The position numbers and the translations under genes are program-made. DNA of 64,000 nucleotides, from contig NZ_JFKC01000004.1 in assembly GCF_002115805.1 (NCBI RefSeq), forward strand, positions 1 to 64,000, written 5' to 3'. The notes below the pieces were generated by a model. The model did not search any database, had not been told where the DNA came from, and saw only the letters and a list, made by a program, of their open reading frames with translations. Position 1 is the first letter of the stretch. Every line of letters starts with the position of its first letter. The stretch is from Marivita geojedonensis (GTDB lineage Bacteria > Pseudomonadota > Alphaproteobacteria > Rhodobacterales > Rhodobacteraceae). Shown in pieces: positions 9,086-37,500 of this stretch.

Positions 9086-9101
9086 GCGCTTTCCTTCATG
9101 G

Positions 9102-10046: not shown

Positions 10047-11350
10047 TATCGTTGTCGAATGTTTTCGGGCAACCAGGTCGCCAGTTCGGGGAACGCGATC
10101 AGGACAAAGACCATGACGACCATGATCAGGAACATCGGGATCGCGGCCTTGGCGATGAAGTTCATCTCGTGGGTTGTCATGCCCTGAAGCACGAAAAGGT
10201 TGAACCCGATCGGCGGTGTGATCTGCGCCATTTCCACGACGACAACGATGAAGATGCCGAACCAGATGATGTCGATGCCAGCCTGACGGATCATCGGTTC
10301 GACCACTGCCATCGTCAGCACCACGGAAGAAATGCCGTCAAGGAACATGCCGAGGATGATGTAGAAGACCAGCAGGGCCATCAGCAACTCGAAGCGGCTC
10401 AGGTCAAGCGAGGCGATCAGATCGGCCAGTCCTCGGGGCAGGCCGGTGAACCCCATGGACAGCGAGAGGAACGCTGCGCCTGCGAGGATCAGCGCGATCA
10501 TGGCCGAGGTGCGCACCGCGCCCATCAGGCTTTCTGTGAATGTCTCCCAGTTGAGGGAGCCTTGGGTTGCGGCCAGCACCATCGAGCCGATGACGCCAAA
10601 CGCGGCGGCCTCGGTCGCGGTGGCAAAGCCGAGGTACATGGAGCCGATGACCACGAGGATCAGGCAGATCACCGGGATCAGAAAGCGCGAGTTCTTGACC
10701 TTTTCGGCAAAGGTCATGGGGGCTTCGGGGGTCGGATTGAAATCTTTCGAGACGAAAGACATGATCGCAACATAGGCCATGAACATCGAGGCCAGCGCCA
10801 GTCCGGGCAGAATACCGGCCATGAACAGCTTGGTGATCGATTCATTGATCGTGACGCCGTAGACGATCAGCGTCAGCGAGGGTGGGATCATCAGGCCCAG
10901 CGTCGCCGCGCCGGCCAGGGTGCCGATGACCATGTTTTCGGGGTAGTTGCGTTTGCGCAGTTCCGGGATGGACATCTTGCCGACGGTGGTCAGCGTTGCA
11001 GCGGAAGAGCCGGACACGGCCGCAAACACGGTGCAGCCGACGATATTGGTGTGCACAAGCCCGCCCGGCAGCCGCGCAAGCCACGGCGAGAGGCCACGGA
11101 ACATGTCCTCGGACAATCGCGTTCGGTAAAGGATCTCGCCCATCCAGATGAACAGGGGCAGGGCGGTCAGCGTCCAAGAGGAGGACGCGCCCCAGATGCG
11201 GGTGATCATCGCGTCGCCCGGTGGGCGCGAGGTGAAAAGCTCCATCCCCACAAAGGCCACGCCCATCAGCGCGAGGCCGACCCAGACACCGGAGCCAAGG
11301 AGGAAGAACAGGACGAAAAGGAAGATTGCGATCGGGGCAAGCTGTTCCAT
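10046..11350 (-). CDS. dctM: TRAP transporter large permease DctM
   Basis: A 434-residue inner-membrane protein with about 12 hydrophobic segments. TRAP-T large-subunit hallmarks are present: the GCTVFAAVSGSSAAT block around residue 105-120, LAGAATLGLMIPPSL, and the mirrored QITPPIGFNLFV near the C-terminus. It uses an ion gradient to import the ligand delivered by the DctP at 11973. It lies 6 nt after the small permease gene and overlaps the BASS-like gene by one base. Operon context suggests an amino or hydroxy acid substrate. Confidence 0.96.
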   Translation of the reverse strand: MEQLAPIAIFLFVLFFLLGSGVWVGLALMGVAFVGMELFTSRPPGDAMITRIWGASSSWTLTALPLFIWMGEILYRTRLSEDMFRGLSPWLARLPGGLVHTNIVGCTVFAAVSGSSAATLTTVGKMSIPELRKRNYPENMVIGTLAGAATLGLMIPPSLTLIVYGVTINESITKLFMAGILPGLALASMFMAYVAIMSFVSKDFNPTPEAPMTFAEKVKNSRFLIPVICLILVVIGSMYLGFATATEAAAFGVIGSMVLAATQGSLNWETFTESLMGAVRTSAMIALILAGAAFLSLSMGFTGLPRGLADLIASLDLSRFELLMALLVFYIILGMFLDGISSVVLTMAVVEPMIRQAGIDIIWFGIFIVVVVEMAQITPPIGFNLFVLQGMTTHEMNFIAKAAIPMFLIMVVMVFVLIAFPELATWLPENIRQR

Positions 11351-11356
11351 GATGCG

Positions 11357-11887
11357 TTACTCCGCGTGGCTCTGGTCGACCAGATCGGATTTGATCCTGT
11401 GATTGCCGGTCAAAAACAACTGGATCAGGTGATCCCAAAACGCGATGGCCAGAAGAATGGCGCCGACTGCCATCGAGATCTGGGGAATCCAGATCGGTGT
11501 CTTGTCGAGGCCCTGGCTGATCTCGTTCCAGCGCCATGACACGTAGGTGCCCTTGACCGCGTACCATGCGAAATAGGTCGCGATCAGGGTTCCCATCGCA
11601 AAGCAGAAGGTCTCGCCCCAGCGGCGCATCCGGCCCATGGCGCTAAGCACCAGCGACACCCGGATATGCGCGCCGTGGTTCAGCGCGTAGGCAAATGCAA
11701 AGAACGACGCGGCGGCCATGCAGTAGCCGGCGTAATCGGTCGCTCCGGGGAAGGTCGTGCCGGTCCAGCGCGCCAGCATCTGAAGGACGATGATGGTCAG
11801 AATGGCGATCAGGAAGACCGACGCAATGATCCCTCCCAACAGATAAAGAAAATCAAGAATGCGCCTGAGCGCGCGCGCTGCCGCCAT
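11357..11887 (-). CDS. dctQ: TRAP transporter small permease DctQ
   Basis: A 176-residue protein with four predicted transmembrane segments and the family motif around GATDYAGYCMAAASFFAFAY and NHGAHIRV. It forms the membrane complex with the DctM encoded 6 nt downstream. An 85-nt gap with a strong stem-loop separates it from the upstream binding-protein gene, a common feature that lets the binding protein be expressed at higher level than the permease. Confidence 0.95.
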   Translation of the reverse strand: MAAARALRRILDFLYLLGGIIASVFLIAILTIIVLQMLARWTGTTFPGATDYAGYCMAAASFFAFAYALNHGAHIRVSLVLSAMGRMRRWGETFCFAMGTLIATYFAWYAVKGTYVSWRWNEISQGLDKTPIWIPQISMAVGAILLAIAFWDHLIQLFLTGNHRIKSDLVDQSHAE

Positions 11888-11914
11888 TGTCCCGGTCCCG
11901 TATATTCATGGTGT

Positions 11915-11964
11915 GAAGCGGGCCAGAGCGACGTCTTGAACAAGACGCATGCTCCGGCCCGTTC
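11915..11964 (-). promoter_or_regulatory. Intercistronic stem-loop between dctP and dctQ
   Basis: A long imperfect hairpin pairs CGGGCC-x-GAGC on one arm with GCTC-x-GGCCCG on the other, closed by an inner GTCTTG/CAAGAC stem. No T-run follows it. It probably protects the upstream dctP message or causes partial termination, giving excess binding protein over permease. Confidence 0.65.
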
Positions 11965-11972
11965 GTTTCAGA

Positions 11973-12950
11973 TCAGTTGCCAGCCTTGTAGGCGTCGACG
12001 ATGGCTTTGCCCGCGTCGCCCGCACCGGCCAGCCATTCCTCGGTCATGGTCGCGCCGATGGCTTGAAGTTCGCTAACGAGAGTGTCGCTGGCGGGCTCCA
12101 CGGTCATGCCACCTTCACGCAGACCGTTCAGGGTGAAGTCGGTATAATCCTTGGATCGCGCCAGTCCTTCCGCCTTGGCAGCGGCAGCGCAGTCGTTCAT
12201 CACGCCCTTGGTGGCGTCATCCAGACCGTTCCAGGCATCCATGTTCACGAACACCGCGTTGCGGGGCAGCCATGCGTCCACGATGTAGAAGTGGTTCAGA
12301 TGCTCCCACACCTTGCGGTCGTATCCGGTCGCGCCGGACGAGATCATGGAGTCGGCCACGCCCGTTGCGAAGGCCTGGCTGATTTCCGCCGCTTCGATCT
12401 GGACCGGGATCATGCCGGTGAGTTCTGCCAGACGCGCTGTCGCGGTCGAATAGGAGCGGAACTTCACGCCATTCATATCCGCGACCGAGTTGACCGGATC
12501 CCGGAAGTAAAGGCCCTGCGGCGGCCACGGCACCGAATAGAGATAGTGCAGATTGTCTTCTGCCATGACCTCGGCAACTGCGGGGCCTGCGATTTCCCAG
12601 AGCTTTTCATGTTCGTCAAAGGACGACACGAGGAACGGGATGGAATCCACGCCATAGAGCGGGTTCTCGTTCTGGTGCGCAGACAGAAGGCGCTCGCCGA
12701 TATTGGCCTGACCGGTCTGGACGGCGCGCTTGATCTCGTTGCCCGGGAAAAGCGAGCCCGACGGGTGTGTCACGATCTCGAGATTGCCGCCCGTTCCATC
12801 GGTCACGCATTTCGCGAAGTTCGCGCCCACTTCCGAGTGGAAGTTCGTGGCGGCATAGGCCATCGGCATGTCCCAGGTCTCGGCCATGGCCGGTGCGGCC
12901 ACCGAGGCCGCGAGCGCGGCACCTGCGGTCCAGTTCATGAGGTTTTTCAT
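11973..12950 (-). CDS. dctP: TRAP substrate-binding protein DctP
   Basis: A 325-residue periplasmic solute-binding protein. Residues 1-23 form a Sec signal peptide ending APAMA, cleaved before ETWD. The DctP-family pattern follows: GNEIKRAVQTGQ (about 75), the conserved Arg in GVKFRSYS, and the KVWEHL region. The ligand is probably a carboxylate contacted by that Arg. It is encoded between a D-amino-acid-dehydrogenase-like gene and the permease genes, so an amino- or imino-acid derivative is a reasonable guess. Confidence 0.95.
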   Translation of the reverse strand: MKNLMNWTAGAALAASVAAPAMAETWDMPMAYAATNFHSEVGANFAKCVTDGTGGNLEIVTHPSGSLFPGNEIKRAVQTGQANIGERLLSAHQNENPLYGVDSIPFLVSSFDEHEKLWEIAGPAVAEVMAEDNLHYLYSVPWPPQGLYFRDPVNSVADMNGVKFRSYSTATARLAELTGMIPVQIEAAEISQAFATGVADSMISSGATGYDRKVWEHLNHFYIVDAWLPRNAVFVNMDAWNGLDDATKGVMNDCAAAAKAEGLARSKDYTDFTLNGLREGGMTVEPASDTLVSELQAIGATMTEEWLAGAGDAGKAIVDAYKAGN

Positions 12951-12999
12951 TCTTGGTCTCCCTGTGGTTTGGTACGGATCTTTTTGTGTTGTGATCCCG

Positions 13000-14250
13000 T
13001 CACGCAGAGTAGCGTGCGGGGGAATAGGGGCTCAGGTCAATATTCGGTGTGGTTTTCGACATCATTTGCGCAACGATCCGGCCCGTTCGGGGGCCGCCCG
13101 TCAGGCCGACGTGATCGTGACCGAAGGCAACAAAAGCTCCGGCAAGCCCGGGCGCTTCGCCGATCACCGGGATCGAATCCGCCATCGACGGGCGATGGCC
13201 CATCCATTCGACGGTTTTCTTCCAGGTGATGCCCGGAATGGCCGCGCGGATATTGCGCTCCAGCAGCTCGAACGGTGCGCGCGAGGGTGCCGCGTCCAGA
13301 CCGCCGAATTCGACGATCCCGGCAAGGCGCAAACGGCCGTCCATCGGCGTGGCGACGAATTTGCCTGAGGCGACCATGACCGGTGCGCGCGGCATCACGG
13401 AGGGTTCCCACAGTTCAAGGTGGTAGCCGCGTTCGCTTTCCAGCGGTGCTTTCAGGCCAAGCTTGGATGCCAGCGGTTTTGACCACGCGCCCGTGGCCAG
13501 TACCACGGCGTCGCAGGCAATCGTGTCTCCACCCGCCCGCACGCCCGTCACGCGGCCATTCTCGCGCACGAAATCCGCCACCTCGGCGCGGATGATTTGC
13601 GCGCCCTGCGCCTCGGCATGGGCAGCAAGCGCCTTGACATAGGCCCCCGGATCGGAAATCCGGCCGTGGTTTTCAAGGCGCGCTGCGAGGCCGATGTCCG
13701 GCGCAAAAACAGGGTCATAGGCGCGGAACGCATCGCCCTCCAGAACATCCCAGTCAAAGCCGTGTTCCTTGCGGACGGACCAGCCGAAGGCGTCCCCATC
13801 ATAGTGTTTGCGGTCGCGGTAGAGGTAGAGGTAGTCGCTTGGCACGATCCACTTCTCGGCACCCGTGCCTGCGGCAAGGGCCTGATGGTCGGCCAGACTG
13901 TCGCCGATGATGGGGGCCAGCGCCGCCGCCCGCCTGCGCACTGTGGCTTCGTTTGCGTGGCCCATATAGGACAGCAGCCAGGGCGCCAGCCGGGGCAGGT
14001 ATCCCCATTTCAGGAACAGGGGCTGATCGGGGCTGAAGAGCATCCCCGGAGCCTTCTTCCACAGGCCCGGCACCGTGACGGGAATGATGGAACAGCTTGC
14101 CAGCACGCCGCCATTGCCGTGGCTTGCCCCCGCCGCCGGTCCCTCGCGGTCGATCAGGATGACGTCATGCCCGCTGCGGTGCAGCCAGATGGCGGTGGAC
14201 ACACCCACGATGCCCGCGCCGATGACGGCGATTTTTCCAGCCGTGCTCAT
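13000..14250 (-). CDS. FAD-dependent D-amino-acid dehydrogenase-like oxidoreductase (DadA family)
   Basis: A 416-residue DAO-superfamily flavoprotein. The N-terminal Rossmann motif IGAGIVG (10-16) binds the FAD ADP moiety, and a conserved C-terminal [14 protein letters not shown] block closes the FAD site. DadA relatives oxidise D-amino acids or D-hydroxyproline at the membrane, passing electrons to quinone. Its ATG overlaps the stop of the enolase-superfamily gene by 4 nt, so the two proteins are coupled. With an epimerase/racemase-type neighbour on each side, a route from an L-amino acid through its D-form is plausible. Confidence 0.9.
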
Positions 14251-16400: not shown

Positions 16401-17110
16401 AAGTGCAGGGCGGAAAGGCGATTTATGGAGCGAGCGTCGGGATTCTCATGCTCGAAGCGCGGTTCCCCCGCATCCCCGGCGACATGGGCAACGCGGCAAG
16501 CTGGGACTTTCCGGTTCATTACAAGATCGTCCGGGGCGCGTCGCCGGACAGGGTGGTGCGCCGGAACGCCGAAGGCCTATTGCCGGACTTCATCGCCGCC
16601 GCGCAGGAACTGGTTGCGGACGGGGTGGACGGGATCACGACCAACTGCGGCTTTCTTTCGATCTTTCAGCACGACATTGCCAAGGCGGTCGGCGTTCCGG
16701 TTGCCACCTCGTCGCTGATGCAGACGGCGATGGTGAACGCGCTTCTGCCACCCGGCAAACGGGCCGGGATCCTGACGATCTCGGCCAGCACCCTGACACC
16801 TGCGCATCTGGAGGCGGCCGGGGTTCCGCCGGGTACGCCGATCGGCACCACGGAAGGCGGGCGCGAATTCACACGCGCCATTCTGGGGAACGAATTGGAA
16901 CTGGATGTCGCCGCGGCAGAAGCCGACAATGTGGAGGCGGCACGGCAGCTTGTGTCCGACAATCCCGATATCGGTGCCTTGGTGCTGGAATGCACCAACA
17001 TGGGGCCTTATGCGCAGGCGATCCGCGAGACGACGGGTCTGCCTGTCTTTTCCATTCCGAACTTCGTGTCGTGGTTTCAGGCGGGACTGGCCCCCAAGCG
17101 GTACGGATAG
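16397..17110 (+). CDS. Aspartate/glutamate racemase family protein
   Basis: A 237-residue Asp/Glu racemase-superfamily protein. Both active-site cysteines are visible: Cys84 in TTNCGF and Cys199 in LECTNM, as needed for two-base proton transfer. Hydantoin racemase and maleate isomerase belong to the same fold. ATGA overlaps the LysR stop, so it is made with that regulator. It faces a DadA-like dehydrogenase and TRAP operon, which suggests it interconverts enantiomers of the imported amino-acid-like compound. Confidence 0.9.
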   Translation: MKVQGGKAIYGASVGILMLEARFPRIPGDMGNAASWDFPVHYKIVRGASPDRVVRRNAEGLLPDFIAAAQELVADGVDGITTNCGFLSIFQHDIAKAVGVPVATSSLMQTAMVNALLPPGKRAGILTISASTLTPAHLEAAGVPPGTPIGTTEGGREFTRAILGNELELDVAAAEADNVEAARQLVSDNPDIGALVLECTNMGPYAQAIRETTGLPVFSIPNFVSWFQAGLAPKRYG

Positions 17111-17217
17111 GTCAGTCTGGCCAGAACAGAGCAGGGCAGCCGCGCGGTTGCAGTGACGACGGCTGTTTCCCCAGATCCCGTTTTCAGATGGTATGGCGCA
17201 AGCCGGGCCGTTGGGCT

Positions 17218-18051
17218 TCAGGCAATCTCGACCACATGACTTGGCTCGTTCTTAATGCCATCGGCTGCGTTCACGTGCTGCGGTGATGCGCTGACACCTT
17301 CTGGCCACGTGACAAGCAAGATCGCGCACCCCTTCACCCGGTTGCTGCGAATGATTTCGGGCAGCGAACGAACGCTTGCCGAAAGATGCCTTTCGTTTCG
17401 CTTGGAGACGTCAACACAAATCTCTACCGGGCTTTCGGGAGGCAGACCGCTTTCCATCAGGTCTTTGGACAGGCGATCCGCCTGGCGGACAGACATGTAA
17501 AACGCCGTCGTGGTGCCCGGACCGGAGAGCCGAGTGCTGTCGGGGAAAGGATCGTCGGCGCAACCGGTCCCGGTGGCGAGAACCAGCGTGTTGGCGACAC
17601 CGCGCTCTGTAAGACTTTTGCCCAGAGACGCGCCTGCGGCCGAGGCGGCCGTCACACCGGGCACAAGTTCGATGGGGATGCCCGCCGCGCGGGCAGCGTC
17701 GAGCTCCTCTGTGGCGCGCCCGAAAATGCCCGGGTCGCCGGACTTCAACCTCACCACGCGCCGCCCCTTCAGGGCTTCGGCAACGATTGCACGGTTGATC
17801 CGGTCCTGCGGCCAACTGTGCGCGCCGACATGCTTGCCGACAAAGACCGTCTCTGCTCCGGCGCGGACGAGGTCGAGAACGTCCGGGTCAACAAGGCGGT
17901 CGTAAAAGACGATGTCGGCTTCCTGCAGGCGGTTGACGGCGCGCAACGTCAACAGATCGCGCGCGCCGGGACCTGCGCCGACAAGGGCGATCTGTCCAAC
18001 CCGTGCCTTTTCGCAGGACTCCGGTTGAGGAAAGATTGGGAAGGCTGTCAT
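17218..18051 (-). CDS. cobA: Uroporphyrinogen-III C-methyltransferase
   Basis: A 277-residue single-domain SUMT. The SAM-binding GAGPGARDLLTLRA motif (about 25-38), the YDRLV segment, SGDPGIFGR and VPGVTAA are all present. It adds two methyl groups to uroporphyrinogen III to form precorrin-2, the precursor of siroheme, the cofactor of assimilatory nitrite reductase. That explains its position as the last gene of the nitrate assimilation operon. It lacks the CysG oxidase/chelatase domain. The N-terminus starting MTAFPIF is slightly extended. Confidence 0.95.
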   Translation of the reverse strand: MTAFPIFPQPESCEKARVGQIALVGAGPGARDLLTLRAVNRLQEADIVFYDRLVDPDVLDLVRAGAETVFVGKHVGAHSWPQDRINRAIVAEALKGRRVVRLKSGDPGIFGRATEELDAARAAGIPIELVPGVTAASAAGASLGKSLTERGVANTLVLATGTGCADDPFPDSTRLSGPGTTTAFYMSVRQADRLSKDLMESGLPPESPVEICVDVSKRNERHLSASVRSLPEIIRSNRVKGCAILLVTWPEGVSASPQHVNAADGIKNEPSHVVEIA

Positions 18052-18064: not shown

Positions 18065-19015
18065 TCATGCCGCGTGCGGAGGAATCCGCTCTGCCCAGAG
18101 GGTTTCTGCCACGCGTGCGCTGTCGGCTACGCCCAGCGTATCGAGCGCCAGAGCGGCGGTCCCGGTGACGATCGCGGTTTGGAAATGGTCTTGAGGGGCA
18201 GGAAAACTGCCGTCGCCGGGGCTTTGGGCATCGTCATCTGCGAGGCGCCGGGTTTCGTCGCACAATGCCGGTACCGTCTCTTCCCAGGGCGCACCATTGC
18301 GGAGACCGAAACCTGCGATCTCTTTTGCGGGATGCCGTTCGAATTCGCCACCGCCGCCCTTGATCACCGACAGGCTCTCCCAACCAAGTTGAGTTGCCGC
18401 GTCTGCCTGTAGCAGTCGGTACGACGGATGGAACACGCCCTGGACGCTGGCGCGTGCCCGGGCGGGGTTGAGCATCCGGCAGATGGTGTTGATGCACGAG
18501 CGCAGGCCCAGCACATCGCGCAGCCTGAGCAGGTCAAAGAGCCGGGGATGCCATTGCTCCAACGGCAGGTAGGCAATGCGATCTTGCGCCAGCAGTCGGG
18601 ACAGCGTGGCGGGGGTATCCGCGATGCCGATCCCCGCATCCGTGAGGCCGTTGCGAACCGCCGCGTCAGGGCCGTTGAAGCCGTGCAATAGAACCGTATG
18701 TCCAGCCTCCGCGACGAGTTTTGCCGAGAGCAGAAACCAGGGGTGCCCGCGTGTGCGGCCGGCTGCATAGCTGGGCCAGTCCAGATCGACCTGCGGGAGA
18801 TCCGGTCCCCACTCCTGAGCGGCCTGTGCGAACCCCGCGATTTCCTCAGCTGTTTCGCCTTTCATGCGCAGGAGCATCAGCAAGGCACCGATTGCCGCGG
18901 GCTCGGCCCCTTCGGAAAGCATGGACCGCATGGCATCCCGGGCTTCGTCTCTTGTCAAAGAGCGCGACCGCCCCGGACCCCGGCCGAGTGTTCTGACATG
19001 TGCGGCGAGGGTCAT
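18065..19015 (-). CDS. Glycosyl transferase/TrpD2 (YbiB-like) family protein
   Basis: A 316-residue protein related to anthranilate phosphoribosyltransferase, of the YbiB/TrpD2 type. The helical N-terminal domain (about 1-75) carries the SLTRDEARDAM and GAEPAAIGALLMLLRMKGET blocks. The catalytic domain lacks a clear GTGGD phosphoribosyl motif, as usual for YbiB, a nucleic-acid-binding homologue in E. coli. In alphaproteobacteria this gene is often found with nitrate assimilation genes. Its start overlaps the nasA stop by 4 nt. Its role there is not established. Confidence 0.85.
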   Translation of the reverse strand: MTLAAHVRTLGRGPGRSRSLTRDEARDAMRSMLSEGAEPAAIGALLMLLRMKGETAEEIAGFAQAAQEWGPDLPQVDLDWPSYAAGRTRGHPWFLLSAKLVAEAGHTVLLHGFNGPDAAVRNGLTDAGIGIADTPATLSRLLAQDRIAYLPLEQWHPRLFDLLRLRDVLGLRSCINTICRMLNPARARASVQGVFHPSYRLLQADAATQLGWESLSVIKGGGGEFERHPAKEIAGFGLRNGAPWEETVPALCDETRRLADDDAQSPGDGSFPAPQDHFQTAIVTGTAALALDTLGVADSARVAETLWAERIPPHAA

Positions 19016-21642
19016 TCCGCTGCCTCGCGGGTCCGCGCGGCGTGCAGGAGGTCACTGATCTCGGGGCGGCATGATCCGCAATTGGTTCCGGCTCCGAGCG
19101 CTTCGCCAATGGCATCGACAGTGATGAGGCCTTTGGTCTCGATCGCGTCGAGGATCGTATTGATGCCCACACCGAAGCACGCGCAAAGGACAGGACCGGG
19201 GTTGGGCAAATCGGCGCGGGACCGGCCCGACAAAGGGTCCACCGCTTTGCGACCCGGAAGAGATTGCAGGTAGTCGCGCATAACGGCGACAGGTGACGGT
19301 GACGCGAAGAGTGCGCCCGTCAACACGCCGTCCTCGTGCAATGCGACCCGCGCGATGCCTCTGCCTGCGTCAATGACTGAAGCAACTTTCGCGGACCGGG
19401 ACCCGAACAGGCGCTGCGCTTCGGCTTCCCAATCCGGCACCGGGGCCGACCCTGCCAATTCGGCACGGTATCCCTGCTCTGTCCGGCTTAGAGCCCAGTA
19501 ATCGGACTGGGGTGACATGGGAGCTCGGGACACGGCAAACCCGTACCATGCCGCCGCGAACCGGGTGACCGACACGACGCCTGCCTTGCTTTCGGGTTGC
19601 CCTGAAACGGGATCGGTCACCGGAGCAACGAGCGCATCGATCCGCGCGGATGGGGCCGTTTCGCCTGTCCAATGGATGGGTGCAAAGACGTTGCCCTGCT
19701 GGACGGAGTCGGTGATCCGTGCCCGCAGAATGGACGATCCGATTGGGCTTGTGACGCGCACAAGGTCTGCAGCACTCAAACCAAGCGCGGTCGCGTCCGC
19801 CGGGTGAATGTCGAGAAATGGCTCAGACAGATGGGCGGAAAGGCGGGGGCTCAGCGAGGTGCGCGTCATGGTATGCCACTGATCGCGCAGCCGCCCGGTG
19901 TTCAGCCTGAATGGAAACCGGGGCTCGGTTCTGGCGGCAGGTGGTTTGAACCGTACGGGAATGAACCGGGCTTTCCCGTCAGGGTGGAAAAAGGCACCGT
20001 CACCGAAAAACCGGCCGCCCTCGCGGGTGCTGGTGACCGGCCAGCGCCGGGGCTCCATGTCGTCGTAGTGGGTGTCCGAGATATTCGACAGCCCGGACAC
20101 ATCGAAATCCCGTCCGAGTTGAGCAGCAACCTTTGACAGTGCCGCATATTCGCGGAAGATCTCGGCGGGTGACGCGTAGTCGAAGGCGGAGGTAAACCCC
20201 ATGCGCCGTGCGACCTCGGCCAGAATGTCCCAATCCGGGCGCGCCTGACCCGGAGCGTCGATCACTTTGCGCTGGCGGCTTATTGTTCTGTCGGAATTGG
20301 TGACGGTGCCATCCTTTTCCGCCCATGCGGTTGCGGGCAGCAGGACGTCAGCCAAACGTGCCGTGTCCGTGGCGCCGGTGATGTCGCTGACAACCGTGAA
20401 CGGGCAGGCCGCGATCGCGTCGCGCACCGCGTCTGCGTCCGGCATCGACACGGCCGGGTTGGTGTGGATGATCCACAGTGCCTTGATCCGCCCGTCGCCG
20501 ACCGCCTGAAACATGTCGACGGCTTTCAGGCCGGGTGCTTCCGGTATGGCAGGGGCGTCCCAGAACTGACGCACGGCGGCGCGGTGATCGGAGTTTTCAA
20601 GATCGAGATGGCAGGCCAGCATGTTGGCGAGTCCGCCCACCTCGCGTCCGCCCATCGCATTCGGCTGACCGGTGACCGACAAAGGCCCGCAACCCGGCGT
20701 ACCGATCCGCCCCGTGGCGAGATGACAGTTCAGAATGGCGTTGACCTTGTCGGACCCGGAGGACGATTGGTTCACGCCCTGGCTGTAGATCGTGACGACC
20801 TTTTCGGTCGCGATCCAGAGCCTGCAGAACTCGCTGATTTGTCTGTCGTTCAGTCCTGTTACGGACGCCTGTTCGTTGCGCGCGGCATCCAGCGCACTGT
20901 CAAAGCCGTTGGTGTGCGCAACGAAGCCCGGATCAACCGCGCCGCTTTCGTAGATTTCGGAAAGCAGGCGGTTGAACAGCGCGACGTCGCTGCCGGGCTG
21001 CAATGCCAGATGCAGATCCGCGTCATTGCAGCTTGCCGTGCGCCGCGGATCGATCACGACGATCTTCGTTCCGCGCGATTTCCGGGCCGCGAGGACGCGT
21101 TGGTACAGAACCGGATGGCACCAGGCCAGGTTCGATCCCACCAAAACCACCAGATCCGCCTCATCGAGGTCTTCGTACGTTCCGGGTACGGTGTCGGTTC
21201 CGAAAGCGCGTTTGTGACCGGCGACCGAAGAGGCCATGCAAAGCCGCGAATTGGTATCGATATTGGCAGAGCCGATGAAGCCTTTCATGAGCTTGTTGGC
21301 GATGTAGTAGTCTTCGGTCAGAAGCTGCCCGGACACGTAGAACGCCACGCTGTCGGGTCCATGGCGCGCAATCGTGTCGGAAAACCGGTCTGCGACCAGT
21401 TGCAGCGCGTCGTCCCAGGAGCTCTGTTCTCCATCTACGACTGGGGACAGAAACCGATGGTCAAGACCCACGGTCTCGCCCAGGGCGGATCCCTTGGAAC
21501 ACAGCCGCCCGTGATTGGCCGGATGCTCCGGGTCACCGCGCACCGCAATCCCGCCTTCGCCATCCGGGCGCAGCAGCACGCCGCACCCGACCCCGCAGTA
21601 GGGGCAGGTCGAGCGGATTTCGGGCAGACCGGAGCCGTCCAT
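19012..21642 (-). CDS. nasA: Assimilatory nitrate reductase catalytic subunit
   Basis: An 876-residue cytoplasmic molybdoenzyme. An N-terminal [4Fe-4S] cluster is bound by Cys13, Cys16, Cys20 and Cys48, followed by the bis-MGD domains with the NSRLCMASS block that carries the Mo-ligand cysteine. An MGD-binding C-terminal domain comes next, and finally a BFD-like [2Fe-2S] module (CACFGV...GTNCGSC) over the last ~60 residues. It reduces nitrate to nitrite. Its start abuts the nirD stop by one base. The gene is full length, in contrast with the deleted nitrite reductase and transporter genes just upstream. Confidence 0.97.
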   Translation of the reverse strand: MDGSGLPEIRSTCPYCGVGCGVLLRPDGEGGIAVRGDPEHPANHGRLCSKGSALGETVGLDHRFLSPVVDGEQSSWDDALQLVADRFSDTIARHGPDSVAFYVSGQLLTEDYYIANKLMKGFIGSANIDTNSRLCMASSVAGHKRAFGTDTVPGTYEDLDEADLVVLVGSNLAWCHPVLYQRVLAARKSRGTKIVVIDPRRTASCNDADLHLALQPGSDVALFNRLLSEIYESGAVDPGFVAHTNGFDSALDAARNEQASVTGLNDRQISEFCRLWIATEKVVTIYSQGVNQSSSGSDKVNAILNCHLATGRIGTPGCGPLSVTGQPNAMGGREVGGLANMLACHLDLENSDHRAAVRQFWDAPAIPEAPGLKAVDMFQAVGDGRIKALWIIHTNPAVSMPDADAVRDAIAACPFTVVSDITGATDTARLADVLLPATAWAEKDGTVTNSDRTISRQRKVIDAPGQARPDWDILAEVARRMGFTSAFDYASPAEIFREYAALSKVAAQLGRDFDVSGLSNISDTHYDDMEPRRWPVTSTREGGRFFGDGAFFHPDGKARFIPVRFKPPAARTEPRFPFRLNTGRLRDQWHTMTRTSLSPRLSAHLSEPFLDIHPADATALGLSAADLVRVTSPIGSSILRARITDSVQQGNVFAPIHWTGETAPSARIDALVAPVTDPVSGQPESKAGVVSVTRFAAAWYGFAVSRAPMSPQSDYWALSRTEQGYRAELAGSAPVPDWEAEAQRLFGSRSAKVASVIDAGRGIARVALHEDGVLTGALFASPSPVAVMRDYLQSLPGRKAVDPLSGRSRADLPNPGPVLCACFGVGINTILDAIETKGLITVDAIGEALGAGTNCGSCRPEISDLLHAARTREAAE

Positions 21643-21974
21643 TACGCAGCGCTCCTCTGTCCGACCGCGTCGCCGTCGATCAGGATGCGGTCGCCGTCCA
21701 GACGCACCGGATAGGTCTCGATGCGCCCTTCATCCGCGCCCTGCGCCTCGCCGGTGTTCAGATCGAACACCCAGTTGTGCAGCGGACAGGTGACTTTCTG
21801 TCCGTGGACGATGCCTTCGACCAAGGGGCCTTGCTTGTGCGGACAGCTGTTTGAAGCGGCAAAGACCTCGGTCTCGGCGGTGCGGAAAACGGCAATGCAG
21901 CCAACCTGCGTTTTGAGAAGCCGCGCCCCGCGAACGGGCACGTCGTCGATATGGCCAATGTCGATCCAGCTCAT
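21642..21974 (-). CDS. nirD: Nitrite reductase small subunit (Rieske [2Fe-2S] protein)
   Basis: A 110-residue protein with a Rieske-type cluster motif: Cys44-x-His46 in CPHKQGPL and Cys63-x2-His66 in CPLHNW. NirD partners the large subunit NirB in NADH-dependent siroheme nitrite reductase. ATG 21974 was chosen because AAGGA lies about 8 nt upstream; an in-frame ATG at 21989 overlaps the preceding stop (ATGA) and is an alternative. The cognate large subunit here survives only as a C-terminal fragment fused to an ABC ATPase N-terminus, so NirD may have no functional partner. Confidence 0.95.
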   Translation of the reverse strand: MSWIDIGHIDDVPVRGARLLKTQVGCIAVFRTAETEVFAASNSCPHKQGPLVEGIVHGQKVTCPLHNWVFDLNTGEAQGADEGRIETYPVRLDGDRILIDGDAVGQRSAA

Positions 21975-21985: not shown

Positions 21986-22816
21986 TCATTCTGCGGCCAA
22001 GGGGGTGAGGTCTGCCAGCGGCGCATAGTTCTGCGCTTTGTCTCTGGCGTGTTCGGCCCAAGGGTCTTTGCGGTAGATGCTTTGCGAGACTTCGAACCGC
22101 TCAACGAGCGCGCGGCGGTTTTCCACGTCGTCCACCACAACCTCTTTCACCCAGTCGAGCCCGACCTTGCCCACCCACTTGTAAATGCGGTCAAGATACT
22201 TGGCGTTCTCGCGATAGGCCTGGGTCACGGCGACGATGACCTCGATGCACTCTTCCTCGGTTGGCACCTGGCACAGAAGCTCTGTTTCCTTCACGTCCAT
22301 GCCCGCAGCACCCGCGATGCCGATCTGGTAACCGCTGTCGACGCAGATGACTCCGATATCCTTGCAGGTCGCCTCGGCGCAGTTGCGCGGACAGCCGGAC
22401 ACGCCCAGCTTGACCTTGTGCGGTGTCCAAGAGCCCCACAGGATCTTTTCGAGCTTGATGCCGAGCCCTGTGCTGTTCTGCGTGCCAAAGCGGCAATGGT
22501 CGGTTCCGACGCAGGTCTTTACCGTGCGCAGGCCCTTGGAATAGGCATGGCCCGAAACCAGCCCGGCCTTGTTCAGATCGGACCAGATATGGGGCAGGTC
22601 GGTGACGGGGGCGCCCTTGAAGGTGACGTCACCGCTTGTTGGCGTATCGAGACCGGCCATCAGATTGATCAGCGTGGTTTTGCCGGTGCCGGAGAAGCCG
22701 AGGAGCACGAGGAACTCGCCCTCTTGGACATCAAGATCGATGTTCTTGAGCACATGCGTCTGGTTGGTGCCGACGCCATAGCTTTTCGAAACGTTTTTGA
22801 AGGACAGGAAGCTCAT
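21986..22816 (-). pseudogene. NrtD-NirB chimera: nitrate ABC ATPase N-terminus fused to nitrite reductase C-terminus
   Basis: An open 276-codon frame that joins two unrelated genes. Residues 1 to ~70 are the start of an NrtD/SsuB-type ABC ATPase with a good Walker A (GFSGTGKTT, 40-48) and the SGDVTF strand, but no Q-loop, signature or Walker B. From about residue 73 (DLPHIW) it is the C-terminal part of NirB, with siroheme/[4Fe-4S] cysteines 102, 108, 142 and 146 and the usual C-terminal tail. The FAD/NADH domains of NirB and most of NrtD are missing. The frame is perfectly kept across the joint, with no stop or frameshift. Neither parent activity can be intact. It fits an in-frame deletion or a collapsed assembly. 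Confidence 0.9.
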
Positions 22817-22822: not shown

Positions 22823-23905
22823 TCACCGGTTGTTTGAGAAGGTGAAGAGCGACTGCAGGGCGTACATCACACGATCCAGCAGGAAGCCGATGATGCCGAT
22901 GGTCAGAACCGCAACCATGATTTTGGCGAGCGACGAGGACGACCCGTTCTGGAACTCGTCCCAGACGAACTTGCCGAGGCCCGGGTTCTGCGCGAGCATT
23001 TCCGCCGCGATCAGCACCATCCAGCCGACGCCCAACGAGAGGCGGAGACCGGTGAAGATGAGCGGAAGGGCAGACGGTAGCACCAGCTTGGTGATCTTCG
23101 TCCAGGTGTTCATCTTGAGCACCTTGGAGACGTTGATCAGGTCCTTGTCGATCGACGCCACACCCAGCGCGGTGTTGATGAGGGTCGGCCAGAGCGAGCA
23201 GAGCGTCACCGTCACCGCCGAGATCACGAAGCTTTTCGGCAGGAGGCCACCTTCAGTTGCGGCAAGCGCCGAAACGACCATGGTCACGATCGGCAGCCAT
23301 GCCAGCGGTGAGACTGGTTTGAAAATCTGGATAAGCGGGTTCAGTGCGGCGTTGGCGGTCGGGGACAGGCCAGCGGCAATGCCCAACGGCACGGCGACAA
23401 CTGTCGCGATCAGGAAGCCGAAGAACACGGTCTTGATCGATGTCCAGATCTGTTCGTAGAAGCTCGGTGCGCCGGTATAGGCGACGGTCTTGACCTCGTC
23501 GGCGCGGCCCGCGTCGATGAGCTTCTGGTTGCGCTGCGCCACCATCGCTTCGAACTTTTCACGCTTTGCCGCCTTGGCTTGCGCGTCTTCGTGCAGGTTG
23601 ACAGCTTCATCCCAGACCTGCGCTGGGCCGGGTACGGCACCGAGGGACGTTTGCACCTTGGGTGCCAAGGTCGCCCAGAGCATCAGGAACGCACAGATGG
23701 CAAGGATCGGGACGATCAGCAGACGCCAGATCTCTTTGATCTGCGCTTGCGGGTTGTCACCTGCAACGGCCTTCAGGACTGGGGTCACCCAACTCAGACC
23801 CAGAACCTGGAACCATTTGTCGGCAGCGTTGATGCGGGTGAACAGACGTGCGCGCCGGGCTTCGCGGTCTGCTGTGTCTGAGAAATTCGGATCGACGGTT
23901 GTCAT
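22823..23905 (-). CDS. nrtB: Nitrate/nitrite ABC transporter permease
   Basis: A 360-residue inner-membrane permease of the NrtB/SsuC type. It has an N-terminal cytoplasmic segment, a first transmembrane helix near residue 65, and a charged insert. The transmembrane core carries the EAA-like loop (KVLKMNTWTKITKLVLPSALP, split here as KVLKMNTWTK and LPSALP). The gene looks complete. It would work with a periplasmic NrtA and an ATPase NrtD. NrtA is reduced to a C-terminal remnant upstream and NrtD to an N-terminal fragment downstream, so the transporter is probably not functional as sequenced. Confidence 0.93.
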   Translation of the reverse strand: MTTVDPNFSDTADREARRARLFTRINAADKWFQVLGLSWVTPVLKAVAGDNPQAQIKEIWRLLIVPILAICAFLMLWATLAPKVQTSLGAVPGPAQVWDEAVNLHEDAQAKAAKREKFEAMVAQRNQKLIDAGRADEVKTVAYTGAPSFYEQIWTSIKTVFFGFLIATVVAVPLGIAAGLSPTANAALNPLIQIFKPVSPLAWLPIVTMVVSALAATEGGLLPKSFVISAVTVTLCSLWPTLINTALGVASIDKDLINVSKVLKMNTWTKITKLVLPSALPLIFTGLRLSLGVGWMVLIAAEMLAQNPGLGKFVWDEFQNGSSSSLAKIMVAVLTIGIIGFLLDRVMYALQSLFTFSNNR

Positions 23906-24003: not shown

Positions 24004-24093
24004 TTAGCCCTGGATTTCGTTTCCAACGACGATTTGCTCACCCTTCAGGCCGATCGGCAGGCTTTCGAGGTAGGCAACCGGAAGTCTGACCGT
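24004..24093 (-). pseudogene. nrtA C-terminal remnant
   Basis: About 30 codons, ending with TAA at 24004-24006, read PVAYLESLPIGLKGEQIV, which matches the conserved C-terminus of NrtA/NasF nitrate-binding proteins (PVAYLES...). There is no start codon or ribosome binding site, and the frame runs directly into the 3' end of nasT in a different frame. The rest of the ~430-residue periplasmic protein is absent from the window. Position before the intercistronic hairpin and nrtB is exactly where nrtA belongs. Confidence 0.75.
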
Positions 24094-24094
24094 C

Positions 24095-24679
24095 TCATCC
24101 CAGGAGCCCCGACGCCGTAACGAGCGCTTCGGCCACGTCAGCGACACGCCGGCCCTGATCCATCGCCGTTTTGCGCAAGAGCGCATATGCCGCGTCCTCG
24201 TCGATCCCTTTTGCTTTCATCAAAAGGCCCTTGGCGCGGTCGATCACCTTGCGTTCTTCCAGCGCCCGGCGGGTTTCGGCCAGTTCGTTGCGCATCTGGC
24301 GCACCATGCTGAACCGCGCGATTGCGGTGTCCATGACGGGTTTGATCCGTTCCGCGGACAATCCGTCAACGACATAGGCCGACACGCCCGCTTCGATTGC
24401 GGTCTGCGCCAGCCCGCCAGCTGCACCGGAAACGAACATGGCGACCGGACGTTCCAGCGGACCGGAGGCGAGGGTCAGTTCTTCAAGCATGTCGCGTGTC
24501 GGATGGTCGATGTCGATCAACACGATATCGGGCGCATACTCTGCGATCTTTCGTGCCAACCCGCTGGTGTTGCCGACGACATGCACATTGCAGTCGGCGC
24601 CGTTCCTCAGCGCATCCACGATCGCAATTGCGCGATCACGATCCTCTTCGACCACAACAACAGTGAGCTGGTTTGCCAT
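24095..24679 (-). CDS. nasT: ANTAR-domain nitrate response antiterminator NasT
   Basis: A 194-residue protein with an N-terminal pseudo-receiver domain (about 5-120, LIDIDHP around 54-60) and a C-terminal ANTAR RNA-binding domain (about 130-185, with RRALEERKVIDRAKGLLM split across helix 1). NasT proteins bind hairpins in the nitrate operon leader and allow read-through when nitrate is sensed by NasS. It is the first gene of the operon. Its stop lies at the deletion joint with nrtA, so the last few residues may not be native. A nasS gene is not present in the window. Confidence 0.92.
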   Translation of the reverse strand: MANQLTVVVVEEDRDRAIAIVDALRNGADCNVHVVGNTSGLARKIAEYAPDIVLIDIDHPTRDMLEELTLASGPLERPVAMFVSGAAGGLAQTAIEAGVSAYVVDGLSAERIKPVMDTAIARFSMVRQMRNELAETRRALEERKVIDRAKGLLMKAKGIDEDAAYALLRKTAMDQGRRVADVAEALVTASGLLG

Positions 24680-30286: not shown

Positions 30287-31186
30287 ATGCAGCCGGAGCA
30301 GATAGAAGCAGCGCGGGATCTTGCCCTTTCGGGCGCCAGTGATGGCGTGACGCGACTTGGGCTGGGTGAGGCGGTGGTGCTCCGTCAGAGCCATCCGACC
30401 GATATCGAAGGTACGCTCTACCGGCCTCTTTTGTGCCTGATCCTGCAAGGGGCAAAGGATGTCTCTGCAGGTGCGATTTCCGTTCGTTGTCCGGCGGGAC
30501 ATGCGATCATCGTCAGCCATGATCTGCCGGTGTCGTCGCGCATCACGCACGCGTCGGAGGATGCGCCATATGTTGCCTTCGTGCTGCCCATCGATCTGGG
30601 ACTTCTGCGCGGGTTTTTCGATCTTGTTCCCGATGTCCCGGATGGTGCCGAAGACGAGCGTGCGCTTACATGTCATCCGGCTGAACCAGGCCTGCTTGAT
30701 GCGGTTGCACGGTTCATCGCACTTTCGAGAGATCCCGCTGCAGCGCCGCTGCTGGGGCCAATCCTCCTGCAGGAAATCCACGCGCGGCTTCTTCTTTCGG
30801 CTCAGGGGGCCATTCTGAGGCGTTTCCTGCACCGTGAGGACCCGTCGCGGCAGGTCGCTCAGGCCATTGCGTCCATTCGCGCGTCAATAGACGAACCGCT
30901 GTCCGTGTCTGCGTTGGCGGAACGCACGGGCATGAGCAGGTCCTCGTTCCATGCGCATTTCAAGGCAGTTACCGGGCTGACACCGGGTCAGTATCAGAAG
31001 GATATCCGTCTGCTTGAGGCCCGACGCCTCATCGCAGAAGGCAAGGCTTCGATTTCTGCCGTGGCGTTCGATGTCGGCTACGAAAGCCCAGCACATTTCA
31101 GCCGGGACTACTCCAGGAAATTCGGGTATTCGCCGCGTGAAGAGCGCACTGGCAGACGGAATGTCCTGGAAGACGAGGTTACATGA
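30287..31186 (+). CDS. AraC-family transcriptional regulator
   Basis: A 299-residue regulator with the AraC_N (PF06719-like) sensory domain (about 15-185) and two helix-turn-helix motifs at the C-terminus (about 200-295, LSVSALAERTGMSRSSFHAHF and ISAVAFDVGYESPAHFSRDY). ATG 30287 begins the recognisable domain (MQPEQIEAA); the open frame upstream has no support. It probably regulates the divergent aldo/keto reductase and the quinone-reductase-like gene downstream. In related proteins the inducer is an alcohol or aldehyde. Confidence 0.92.
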   Translation: MQPEQIEAARDLALSGASDGVTRLGLGEAVVLRQSHPTDIEGTLYRPLLCLILQGAKDVSAGAISVRCPAGHAIIVSHDLPVSSRITHASEDAPYVAFVLPIDLGLLRGFFDLVPDVPDGAEDERALTCHPAEPGLLDAVARFIALSRDPAAAPLLGPILLQEIHARLLLSAQGAILRRFLHREDPSRQVAQAIASIRASIDEPLSVSALAERTGMSRSSFHAHFKAVTGLTPGQYQKDIRLLEARRLIAEGKASISAVAFDVGYESPAHFSRDYSRKFGYSPREERTGRRNVLEDEVT

Positions 31187-31263
31187 TCTGCAAAGCCTGC
31201 GCGCCTGCTGCATGATCCGCTCCTTGCGGTTTCATCCGGGACAAAAGCCGCTAATACTTGGGC

Positions 31264-32385
31264 ATGGCACAAGACCCTCACCGTTTTGACATTGGCCCGG
31301 GCGACGACGCGATGTGGGCTGTCGTTACTGTTGCGCAGGGCGGATATGACATGCTGTCCTATCGCCGTGTCCGTAAGCCACGCCCCGGGCGCGGCGAAAT
31401 TCTTCTGCAGGTGCTGGCCGCGGGTGTGAACAACACCGAGATCAATACGCGTTTGGGGTGGTACTCCTCATCGGTCACAGACGGGACAGAGCAGACGGCG
31501 GGTGCGGTGGCGGCGGCGGCTGAGCAAAAAGCCGATGGCGGATGGAATGCCGCAACGCCGTTTCCGTTCATTCAGGGCACGGATTGCTGCGGGCGCGTTG
31601 TTGGCGTCGGTGAAGATGTGGAGCGGCAGATGATCGGCAAACGCGCACTTGTGCGTGCGTGTATGCGTCCCAGAGGATTCGCATCACCGGAGAACATCTG
31701 GATGGGATCGGATTTCGACGGTGCTTTCGCGCAGTTCGTGGTTGTTCCTGCATCCGAGGTGTTTCCGGTCGACTGCGCCTGGTCCGATGCTGAACTGGCA
31801 ACCATTCCCTGTGCCTATGGGACAGCAGAAAACATGCTGCACCGTGTCGGACTGTCAAAGGGAGAGCGTGTCCTCGTCGCAGGCGCTTCGGGTGGGGTCG
31901 GCTCTGCCGCCGTTCAACTGGCGCTGCGGCGCGGGGCAGAGGTCATTGCCATCGCGGCCCGTTCAAAGCACGCGGACATGCGGTCACTCGGCGCTGTGGA
32001 ACTTGTCGATCGGAACGATGACCTTTTGACCCTTCTGGGCGAAAATGCCGTCGATGTCGTGGTCGACAATGTGGCCGGTCCCGGGTTTCCCGCGATGCTG
32101 AAGCTGCTGCGGCGTCGTGGGCGCTATGTGTCTTCAGGGGCCATCGCCGGTCCTGTTGTGTCGCTCGACATGCGTGACATGTATCTCAAGGACATCACGC
32201 TCTTCGGGTCGACTGGCTGGGACGCGCCCGTGTTCCCCGATCTGATCCGCTATATCGAAAACGGAGAGATCAAACCGCTTGTTGCTGCCACTTATCCGTT
32301 GAACCAGATCGCCGATGCCCAAAAAGCGTTCCTGAAGAAAACTCATGTCGGCAATTTCGTTCTGTTGCCGCCGGGTATGGATTGA
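31264..32385 (+). CDS. Quinone-oxidoreductase-like MDR alcohol dehydrogenase
   Basis: A 373-residue medium-chain dehydrogenase/reductase. The GroES-like domain contains GVNNTEINTR, and the Rossmann domain has the NAD(P)H motif AGASGGVGSAAVQLA (about 203-217). The zinc-ligand pattern is not fully conserved, which suggests a quinone oxidoreductase/YhdH-like enzyme. ATG 31264 is used; a TTG at 31258 and an internal ATG at 31312 are alternatives. It follows the AraC gene by 77 nt on the same strand. Confidence 0.9.
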   Translation: MAQDPHRFDIGPGDDAMWAVVTVAQGGYDMLSYRRVRKPRPGRGEILLQVLAAGVNNTEINTRLGWYSSSVTDGTEQTAGAVAAAAEQKADGGWNAATPFPFIQGTDCCGRVVGVGEDVERQMIGKRALVRACMRPRGFASPENIWMGSDFDGAFAQFVVVPASEVFPVDCAWSDAELATIPCAYGTAENMLHRVGLSKGERVLVAGASGGVGSAAVQLALRRGAEVIAIAARSKHADMRSLGAVELVDRNDDLLTLLGENAVDVVVDNVAGPGFPAMLKLLRRRGRYVSSGAIAGPVVSLDMRDMYLKDITLFGSTGWDAPVFPDLIRYIENGEIKPLVAATYPLNQIADAQKAFLKKTHVGNFVLLPPGMD

Positions 32386-32467
32386 TCCCGCAAAGAACCG
32401 TCAAGCCACCATCGTTAACGGGTATCGAGAGATACAGAGCCATCGGCCGTTGCCTCTTGCCCCGTGT

Positions 32468-32833
32468 CTACCCTCCGATGAACACTGTCCGCGCGACCAT
32501 CATTTTCGGGTCTCCCAAAAGTGTCCCGCAGCCCGCCATATCGACAATCCAGCGTGCTGCAGGGCGTCCGTGGATCAAGACGGTTGCGCTGCCTTTTGCA
32601 ATCGGGGGCATGGGCAGCGGTGGTACGAAAGCCGGCGGTGGACCAATCATCGGTGGGTGGGCCGGGCCGGCACTTGTCATGCCGGAGCAAAGCACGAAAT
32701 CCCCCATAACCGCTGCGGGCATTTTCTCGGTAAGCACAGTGACCGGGCGCCCGGGCGACGGAACAGCGATCAGGCCGCTGGGTACGACCGTATCATGTGT
32801 CACCGGGTCTGTGAGACGGGCTCCTGGGAACAT
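32468..32833 (-). CDS. PAAR-domain protein (type VI secretion spike tip)
   Basis: A 121-residue PAAR protein. It opens with ARLTDPVTHD, the PAAR family start, and continues with proline/glycine-rich repeats, GDFVLCSGM, a short PAHPPMIGPPPA segment, and ends TVLIHGRPAARW...CGTLLGDPKM, where the usual zinc-binding Cys and neighbouring residues can be seen. PAAR proteins sharpen the VgrG spike of the type VI secretion system and can carry effectors. No VgrG, Hcp or other T6SS gene is in the window, and no effector domain is attached. The gene is monocistronic and convergent with the MDR gene. Confidence 0.82.
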   Translation of the reverse strand: MFPGARLTDPVTHDTVVPSGLIAVPSPGRPVTVLTEKMPAAVMGDFVLCSGMTSAGPAHPPMIGPPPAFVPPLPMPPIAKGSATVLIHGRPAARWIVDMAGCGTLLGDPKMMVARTVFIGG

Positions 32834-33060
32834 ATCGCTGGGTCTTTCGACTGCGGATTATCGGCCACGGGCACGTCACGATGCCCGACCGCTTCATCCC
32901 AAGGGTGTCTGCATATGCCGTTCCAGTCAACCAAAAGCTGCCAATCCATAAAGGAGGGCAGGGGTTTGAACCGCCGTTGCCTCTCGCTTGTCCACAGTGC
33001 AGAGTTCAGGGACATCTCCGACCCGACAGCGCGGGTGCCGTTTGCGGTGCAACCCGTTGA
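32834..33060. other. Gap between PAAR gene and mtnA operon
   Basis: This stretch lies upstream of the PAAR gene on the minus strand and just before the stub that precedes mtnA on the plus strand. Short open frames exist in several frames, but none has a recognisable domain or a good ribosome binding site. It must contain the PAAR promoter and may contain the broken 5' part of a plus-strand gene. Confidence 0.4.
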
Positions 33061-33153
33061 TGGGCGGAACTCACGCAAGAGGCTGACGCGCTGGCAGATG
33101 GCGGTGTGGCCGATGCCATCGCCAAGGACTTCGATGGAAAGGACGTCCTATGA
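33061..33153 (+). pseudogene. Unidentified 3' coding remnant overlapping mtnA
   Basis: Thirty codons after an in-frame TGA read [15 protein letters not shown], then [15 protein letters not shown], then TGA. The composition is that of a normal coding C-terminus in this genome, and the TGA overlaps the mtnA start as ATGA, the usual sign of a preceding operon gene. There is no start codon, so only the tail of a gene appears to remain. I do not recognise the family; a kinase or phosphorylase acting on methylthioribose would be expected here by context. Confidence 0.4.
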
Positions 33154-34253
33154 AGATCGACGGAACCCATTACCGCTCGTTGTGGTGGAACCACGACAGG
33201 GATGTTCTCGAGATCATCGACCAACGGTGGCTGCCGCATGACTTCCGGGTGATCCCGGTCGAAACGATGCAAGACTTCGCGGATGCGATCTTTGAGATGC
33301 GTGTGCGTGGCGCGCCTTTGATCGGGGCGACGGCGGCCTATGGGATGGCTCTGGCGATGGCGGAAGACCCGTCTGACGCCAATATGGATGCTGCCTGGTC
33401 GTATCTGGAAAAGACGCGACCTACGGCGATCAACCTGCGTTGGGCGCTCGACCGCTGCCGGGCTGCATTGCGGCCAGTGGCGGAAGGGGACCGGGCGGCG
33501 GCCGCCCTGGCTCTTGCGCACGACATTGCGGATGAGGATGTGGAGATCAACCGCCGCATCGGTGAGAACGGTCTTGCCCTCATCCGGGAGATCGCAGCGA
33601 AGAAACCGGCGGGGGAGCCGGTGCGTCTGCTGACCCATTGCAACGCGGGTTGGCTTGCTACGGTGGATTGGGGCACGGCGACAAGCCCGATGTATCATGC
33701 ACATGATGCTGGCATCCCCTTGCATGTCTGGGTCGATGAAACCCGACCGCGCAATCAGGGCGCGCTGACCTCATGGGAGCTGGGCAAACATGGTGTTCCG
33801 CACACCTATATCACCGACAATGCAGGCGGGCATCTGATGCAGCACGGGATGGTGGACATGGTCATCACCGGCACGGACCGCACCACGCGACAGGGGGATG
33901 TGTGCAACAAGATCGGCACATACCTGAAAGCGCTGGCAGCCCATGACAACGGCGTGCCGTTCTACGTGGCGCTGCCGTCGCCCACGATAGACTGGACCGT
34001 GACCGATGGCGTGGCCGAGATTCCCATCGAAGAACGCAACGCCCGCGAGGTCACCCATGTGCAGGGCGTTCTCGATGCCGGTGATATAGGCGCGGTGCAG
34101 GTCACTCCCGAACGCACGCCGGGCGGCAATCCTGCCTTTGACGTCACGCCGAACCGTCTGGTGACAGGTCTGATCACTGAACGCGGTGTATGCGATGCAT
34201 CCGAAGAGGGGCTTGCGTCGCTTTTCCCCGAATTCGCCCGCGCGGCGGAGTAG
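33150..34253 (+). CDS. mtnA: S-methyl-5-thioribose-1-phosphate isomerase
   Basis: A 367-residue MtnA of the eIF2B-like fold. The catalytic Cys164 is in LLTHCNAG and Asp243 in TGTDRTT, with the supporting [10 protein letters not shown] and [10 protein letters not shown] motifs. It isomerises the aldose 5-methylthioribose 1-phosphate (or 5-deoxyribose 1-phosphate) to the ketose. The nearby class II aldolase suggests the dihydroxyacetone-phosphate shunt rather than full methionine salvage, since mtnBCDE-type genes are not seen. It overlaps an upstream coding tail by 4 nt and a 58-codon frame follows. Confidence 0.95.
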
Positions 34254-34261
34254 GGCAGCCG

Positions 34262-34438
34262 ATGCCTGCCGCACAATTCGGAATAACGCGCAGCACCTCG
34301 GTGGAGGAAACGCTTTTCGCCGGTGCGCGTTGCGAAGGGGCCGCTGGACCTGTGCTGGCCTCAGTGCAAAACGGATTTGTGGCCCGCCGCGCCACCGGAA
34401 CGTGCCGGGACCACACCCGGTTGGAGATGCAGGCATGA
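34262..34438 (+). CDS. Unidentified 58-residue frame between mtnA and aldolase (possible stub)
   Basis: A small frame starting at ATG 34262, with GGAG about 11 nt upstream, and ending in a TGA that overlaps the aldolase ATG as ATGA. The sequence begins MPAAQFGITRSTSVEETLF and ends HTRLEMQA. It resembles no family that I recognise. Its placement and coupling are those of a true operon gene, but the length suggests either a small unknown protein or the joined ends of a larger gene after an internal deletion, as at 4700-4798. Confidence 0.35.
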   Translation: MPAAQFGITRSTSVEETLFAGARCEGAAGPVLASVQNGFVARRATGTCRDHTRLEMQA

Positions 34439-35121: not shown

Positions 35122-35217
35122 CCTGCAAAGAGTGAGCGACCTGAAAGCGAGCATATTGCAGAGACCGGTGACTTGGCGTCAGTATGAAGGGCAGGCCACG
35201 ACACAGGAGACAGTGCG

Positions 35218-37495: not shown

Positions 37496-37500
37496 ACAGC

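Follow-up and report, generated by a model that had tools for sequence, protein, structure and literature searches.

An in-frame nrtD-nirB chimera in Marivita geojedonensis is probably a fusion pseudogene left by deletion in a decaying nitrate-assimilation operon

One of the closest described counterparts of the locus studied here is the NasS-NasT nas operon of Paracoccus denitrificans. In that organism NasT binds the nasA leader, and nitrate is assimilated constitutively once nasS is lost (PMC3795266); the nitrate reductase receives its electrons from NADH by way of the nitrite reductase NasB and of NasG (PMC5424462). Measured against the operon described in those two papers, the window, by which we mean the whole 64,000-nucleotide stretch analysed (contig NZ_JFKC01000004.1 of Marivita geojedonensis, positions 1 to 64,000), has in common a nasT-type ANTAR gene and genes for NirB, NirD and nitrate reductase. 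Of the marks of such an operon (NasT, NasS, and a leader with hairpin and terminator) the window holds only the ANTAR gene, whereas a congener, G012, has NasS and a leader with hairpins as well, and differs from P. denitrificans in that its importer is ABC-type; the window also lacks the substrate-binding protein and the greater part of nirB. Literature searches on nitrate in Marivita, on NasT, NasS and ANTAR, and on loss of nitrate-assimilation genes in Roseobacter gave, among the titles listed, none that names the locus.

Fusion genes and pseudogenes born by deletion between neighbouring genes on the same strand are a known kind, and joining two such genes by deletion keeps the frame about one time in three. 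They resemble the window locus in their short direct repeats at the junction, kept flanks and frame left open by chance, and differ from it in nothing essential. We propose, with a probability of roughly 85%, that the chimera described here is such a fusion pseudogene, resulting from deletion in a decaying nitrate operon of patchy occurrence.

The remains of this nitrate-assimilation operon occupy 24679 to 17218 of the minus strand and include an ORF running from 22816 to 21986 (276 codons plus stop, no internal stops). An earlier note on this DNA, silent as to strand, had reported an uninterrupted 276-codon frame at 21986-22816, read it as an in-frame fusion of nrtD and nirB, and placed in it a Walker A motif and cysteines at 102, 108, 142 and 146, all of which we recover. 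Pfam places ABC_tran at residues 23-84 (profile positions 1-61 of 137, E 1.9e-13) and NIR_SIR at residues 94-232 (3-155 of 158, E 7.6e-32). The ABC ATPase Walker A, GFSGTGKT, occupies residues 40-47, and C102, C108, C142 and C146 form the pattern C-x5-C ... C-x3-C, which we take to be the siroheme/[4Fe-4S] cysteine motif of NirB; four more cysteines stand at 151, 158, 182 and 190, and all eight match those in the corresponding stretch of G012 NirB. Residues 1-73 align with G012 nrtD at 90% identity and residues 65-276 with G012 nirB at 91%, these being two separate genes that sit 3.3 kb apart. The ORF thus divides into the 5' 72 codons of nrtD, the nitrate ABC transporter ATPase gene (22601-22816; 92% amino acid identity to G012 nrtD residues 1-72), and the 3' end of nirB (21986-22597; about codons 613-815 of 815, 94% amino acid identity to G012 over 202 residues).

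Much is missing from each half, in agreement with the earlier note's statement that the remaining ABC motifs and the FAD/NADH domains of NirB are gone. In G012 the nitrate ATPase NrtC/NrtD is a double ATPase of 561 codons; the fusion ORF has its matching N-terminal 72 residues including Walker A, but neither the LSGG signature, nor LLLDEP (Walker B-type), nor the second ATPase. NirB (TIGR02374) combines FAD/NADH, [2Fe-2S] and NIR_SIR_ferr domains with NIR_SIR; the fusion ORF keeps the C-terminal 202 residues with the NIR_SIR domain and its cysteines, but lacks the first two and most of the third. Of the Pfam domains that an intact NirB shows, the ORF has lost Pyr_redox_2, Fer2_BFD and Rubredoxin_C entirely and NIR_SIR_ferr for the most part; NIR_SIR is the sole NirB domain present, and the family score, 203.7 bits, lies below the cut-off of 578.35. 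The solved structures matching G012 NirB number 171, and among the 60 listed nearly all match the flavoprotein parts, with one F420-dependent sulfite reductase aligned to the siroheme part.

The genes around the chimera likewise lie on the minus strand. Upstream are two intact genes, nasT, for an ANTAR antiterminator (24095-24679; PF03861, E 2.6e-22; 95% amino acid identity to G012; named by domain and place), and the permease gene nrtB (22823-23905; BPD_transp_1; 89% amino acid identity to G012), whose TIGR01183 ntrB score of 153.8 bits is below the cut-off of 209.05. Downstream follow an intact nirD, for the small subunit (21642-21974; TIGR02378, 92.1 bits, cut-off 74.65); an intact nasA-type nitrate reductase ORF with C-terminal Fer2_BFD (19012-21642); a YbiB/TrpD-like gene of the glycosyl transferase family (18065-19015; NF006564, 315.7 bits, cut-off 257), placed in the same order in G012; and a cobA/cysG-type uroporphyrinogen-III methyltransferase gene (17218-18051; TIGR01469, 221.8 bits, cut-off 185). 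Curated cut-offs are thus reached by NirD, CobA and the YbiB-like protein; for nrtB and the nitrate reductase the names come from domain, operon place and congeners, the latter reaching no curated cut-off (NCBIfam NasC, 429.3 bits of 1100) and being 74-85% identical to full-length congener genes.

Comparison with three members of the same genus, G012, G008 and G015, reveals what is absent. The operon of G012 is whole (nasT-nasS-nrtA-nrtB-nrtD-nirB-nirD-nasA-ybiB-like-cobA): at its locus, L033, nasS lies at 767-1930, nrtA at 2188-3558, nrtB at 3657-4733, nrtD with two ATPase modules at 4740-6425 and nirB (815 aa) at 6422-8869, the other genes standing in the same order as in the window. Window and L033 align in three blocks (24722-24071 to 143-795, 24075-22599 to 3487-4957, and 22600-17300 to 8255-13546), interrupted at two junctions. 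The first, at 22598-22600 on the minus strand, lacks about 3297 bp of G012, from nrtD codon ~72 to nirB codon ~613, and carries a 2-bp direct repeat, GA; the earlier note had put the join within 22590-22620 and suggested that alignment to relatives might reveal about 2 kb of lost DNA, and in the alignment about 3.3 kb of congener sequence has no counterpart there. In relatives the two genes that contribute the halves of the chimera are neighbours, on one strand and in this order, and the DNA that separates the matching portions there is absent here.

The second junction, at 24070-24075 on the minus strand and 1.5 kb from the first, had escaped the earlier note. About 2691 bp of G012 are absent there, made up of the larger part of nasS, the leader that follows it and the larger part of nrtA, and the direct repeat is GCCTAC. 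G015 carries both missing stretches (3297 and 2698 bp), and G008 carries that of the second junction (2689 bp), its nirB being divided between two contigs. Both repeats are read from the congeners in place of the window genome's own parental sequence: GCCTAC flanks both sides in G015, whereas the nasS side of G012 reads GCTTAT and so does not give the full 6 bp. What is left of nasS is a 29-bp remnant (24070-24098, minus strand) with the start codon and about nine codons, in which a 1-bp deletion just after the start codon shifts the frame; of nrtA the last ~23 codons and the stop remain (24004-24075, minus strand). Because the nasS remnant has this deletion of its own, nasS is dead whatever happened at the second junction.

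In G012 the leader between nasS and nrtA (L033 2027-2140) contains a 10-bp stem with the hexaloop AACGAG, which we presume to be the kind of hairpin read by ANTAR proteins, followed before nrtA by a terminator-like hairpin with a T-run. This single leader, the one folded, folds better than 200 of 200 shuffles (z -3.86). Rfam gave it no family match, and nothing useful in L033, L034 or L001 (one chance snoRNA hit below the gathering score). With the leader lost from the window, nrtB now follows nasT, and transcription of the operon would have to start from the nasT side or from an unseen promoter. A nas operon without an adjoining nasS is not unique to this genome, since in five of 80 loci compared (L071, L086, L106, L110 and L117) the best nasS match is nrtA itself and no nasS lies beside nrtA.

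The join itself was found at no other place among the 61 genomes listed or the best 80 of at least 582 matching loci, a selection from which very near relatives of the window genome may have been left out. In 79 of the 80 loci nrtD and nirB are 3269-4704 bp apart (two values extrapolated from partial nrtD), with none collapsed; the remaining locus, L051, is cut by a contig end. At L063 an apparent match across the join was rejected as a weak tblastn extension, its nirB being full length and its spacing 3287 bp. A plasmid search covering 281 records gave none with a single place covering 80% of the query.

The operon as a whole is patchy. Close nirB homologues occur in six of 17 genus genomes, the window genome included (77-91% on the best segment; in G004 nirB is split over two contigs, the second piece at 73%), and close nasA homologues in the same six (74-85%; in G005 80% and 62% on two contigs), with no comparable match to either in the other 11, among which two genomes reach no more than 87% completeness. 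Five congeners, G002, G001, G004, G016 and G013, are collinear with the left flank between 11001 and 17079-17115; in the four of them whose contig continues, the sequence past that point differs each time. From this and the six-of-17 occurrence we regard the operon as a patchy cluster at a variable place, broken in this genome. The synteny stops right at the end of an Asp/Glu racemase gene, as at a variable or insertion-prone site. Elsewhere in the window, a simple ORF pass calls no gene in several intervals of 0.4-1.2 kb within 30832-38881 and 58771-59688.

Could the strain possess a complete operon from which the assembler dropped about 3.3 kb and about 2.7 kb? The assembly is a draft (4.31 Mb in 73 contigs), and the retained nrtD, nirB, nrtB and nasA pieces give no sign of decay. 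Pairwise dN/dS against G012 and G008 is 0.01-0.09 for nasT, nrtB, nrtD', 'nirB, nirD and nasA, and 0.01-0.07 between G012 and G008 for the same pieces, synonymous sites being near saturation. Departures at conserved sites, counted against 71-80 homologues, number 0 or 1 per gene, a level reached by many relatives (for example by 24 of 80 with the nirB part and by 42 of 77 with nrtB); among the retained pieces the nasS remnant alone shows damage. An apparent acceleration of nrtB against three congeners (22 unique residues versus 5-9; dN/dS 0.08 versus 0.03 for G012-G008) was dropped when, with 14 relatives, the excess vanished (2 versus 1-8). Against a dropped-sequence error, an overlap misjoin needs a longer shared sequence than the 2 and 6 bp found at the junctions, and the nasS remnant is frameshifted in its own right; for these two reasons we hold plain misassembly to be less likely. 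Completeness is 100 and contamination 0.01, and of another part of the window, 17 kb long, congeners match about 15.8 kb, with nothing missing here alone (G003 is longer by ~4.9 kb at one place where G008 is not, and G012 and G015 by ~1.3-1.4 kb where G003, G008 and G009 are not). Nor do the missing stretches match other contigs of the assembly beyond short hits to ABC paralogues; this DNA search ran with no positive control alongside, the same method having recovered 66-88% identical stretches in congeners. The own assembly also yielded no second nirB, as the earlier note had suggested checking, no second nasS or nrtA, and no close copy of nrtD, the best ABC paralogues being ~50% identical over residues 1-70. 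The NasS protein finds only a 35% identical NrtA-like paralogue. That paralogue belongs to a second NrtA/NrtB/NrtC-like ABC transporter on contig C12 (L134 6712-9949), upstream of which, on the opposite strand, lies a gene that by eye resembles a sigma-54-type regulator. Taken together, we consider an assembly artefact improbable. Somewhat less improbable, though still doubtful, and compatible with deletion, is that the cluster was acquired already damaged or was damaged while moving to its site: the collinear left flank ends at 17079-17115, beside the operon, the sequence beyond differs in each of the four congeners whose contig runs on, and the operons of G012 and G015 adjoin other DNA. Such a history requires an extra step, and no donor with these junctions turned up in searches that may omit near relatives of the window genome.

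On a very different reading the cell makes a new, functional protein from the chimera, in which half of an ATP-binding domain is coupled to half of a siroheme/[4Fe-4S] domain. The open frame, the kept Walker A and eight NirB cysteines, and substitutions no more numerous than in intact homologues would suit it. Against it stand the missing motifs and domains listed above; the join recurs at no other locus among the matches listed, and AlphaFold predicts the structure poorly (mean pLDDT 52.9, with values under 50 at residues 1-71 and 79-116, from a shallow alignment of 14 rows, 13 of which span the NirB part only, leaving the first part to the chimera alone); we think this reading very unlikely. 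Slightly less credible still is a translated fusion, kept because its nucleotide-binding half-domain and siroheme-domain stump together serve some use, such as binding the NrtB permease, siroheme or NirD, while the operon is transcribed from the nasT side and no longer responds to nitrate. The earlier note found the preserved frame striking. Between same-strand operon genes about a third of deletions fall in frame, and no stops have gathered, so the open frame needs no special explanation.

We therefore favour the fusion pseudogene. A deletion of ~3.3 kb would have taken out all of nrtD beyond its first 72 or so codons together with the initial three quarters of nirB, leaving the two stumps in one frame by a one-in-three chance, and a second, of ~2.7 kb, would have taken nearly all of nasS and nrtA with the leader between them. 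Both probably arose in the living cell, through illegitimate recombination or slippage; the repeats GA and GCCTAC suit deletion by slippage or end joining. Because the retained pieces other than the nasS stump show no decay, and the other genes no excess of changes at conserved sites, the deletions would have to be recent, and a recent event explains both the junctions and the lack of decay. Counting against this account, it calls for two independent deletions within a single operon, more than the simplest history would need.

With the ATPase signature, Walker B, the flavin/NADH and [2Fe-2S] domains and most of the ferredoxin-like half domain gone, the fusion product most likely does nothing; judged by its domains, it would have neither ATPase nor nitrite reductase activity. 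PF01077 occurs in the genome only in the chimera and in one CysI-like gene (two NIR_SIR hits in one frame, neighbours judged by eye), NirK reaches at best 31.3 bits against a cut-off of 296.3, and a NirS candidate (PF02239, the cd1 family, 26.9 bits against 25.5) was rejected, covering 100 of 368 positions; among the siroheme, NirK and cd1 families, no other convincing nitrite reductase was found in the assembly. NrtABD import, NasS/NasT control and NADH-dependent nitrite assimilation would thus be lost, and nitrate assimilation probably with them. The earlier note, finding nitrate reductase, NirD and CobA intact downstream, expected the cell still to reduce nitrate. The ORFs are indeed intact; continued nitrate reduction is doubtful, since, if the electron path reported for P. 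denitrificans (PMC5424462) applies here, loss of NirB would probably stop nitrate reduction by the same route too. The nasA product, with its C-terminal Fer2_BFD, might accept electrons otherwise.

The locus gives the impression of a common set of genes in decay and not of a new protein, and when two neighbours in an operon are joined in frame, the chimera says little in favour of one. Provided that the deletions are real, gene-presence calls that find nirD, nasA and nrtB would mistake this strain for a nitrate user. On the same condition, the window catches a marine bacterium at an early stage of giving up nitrate assimilation: the importer, nitrate sensing, nitrite reduction and control by the leader have been lost, while the ORFs for nitrate reductase and siroheme synthesis are still intact.
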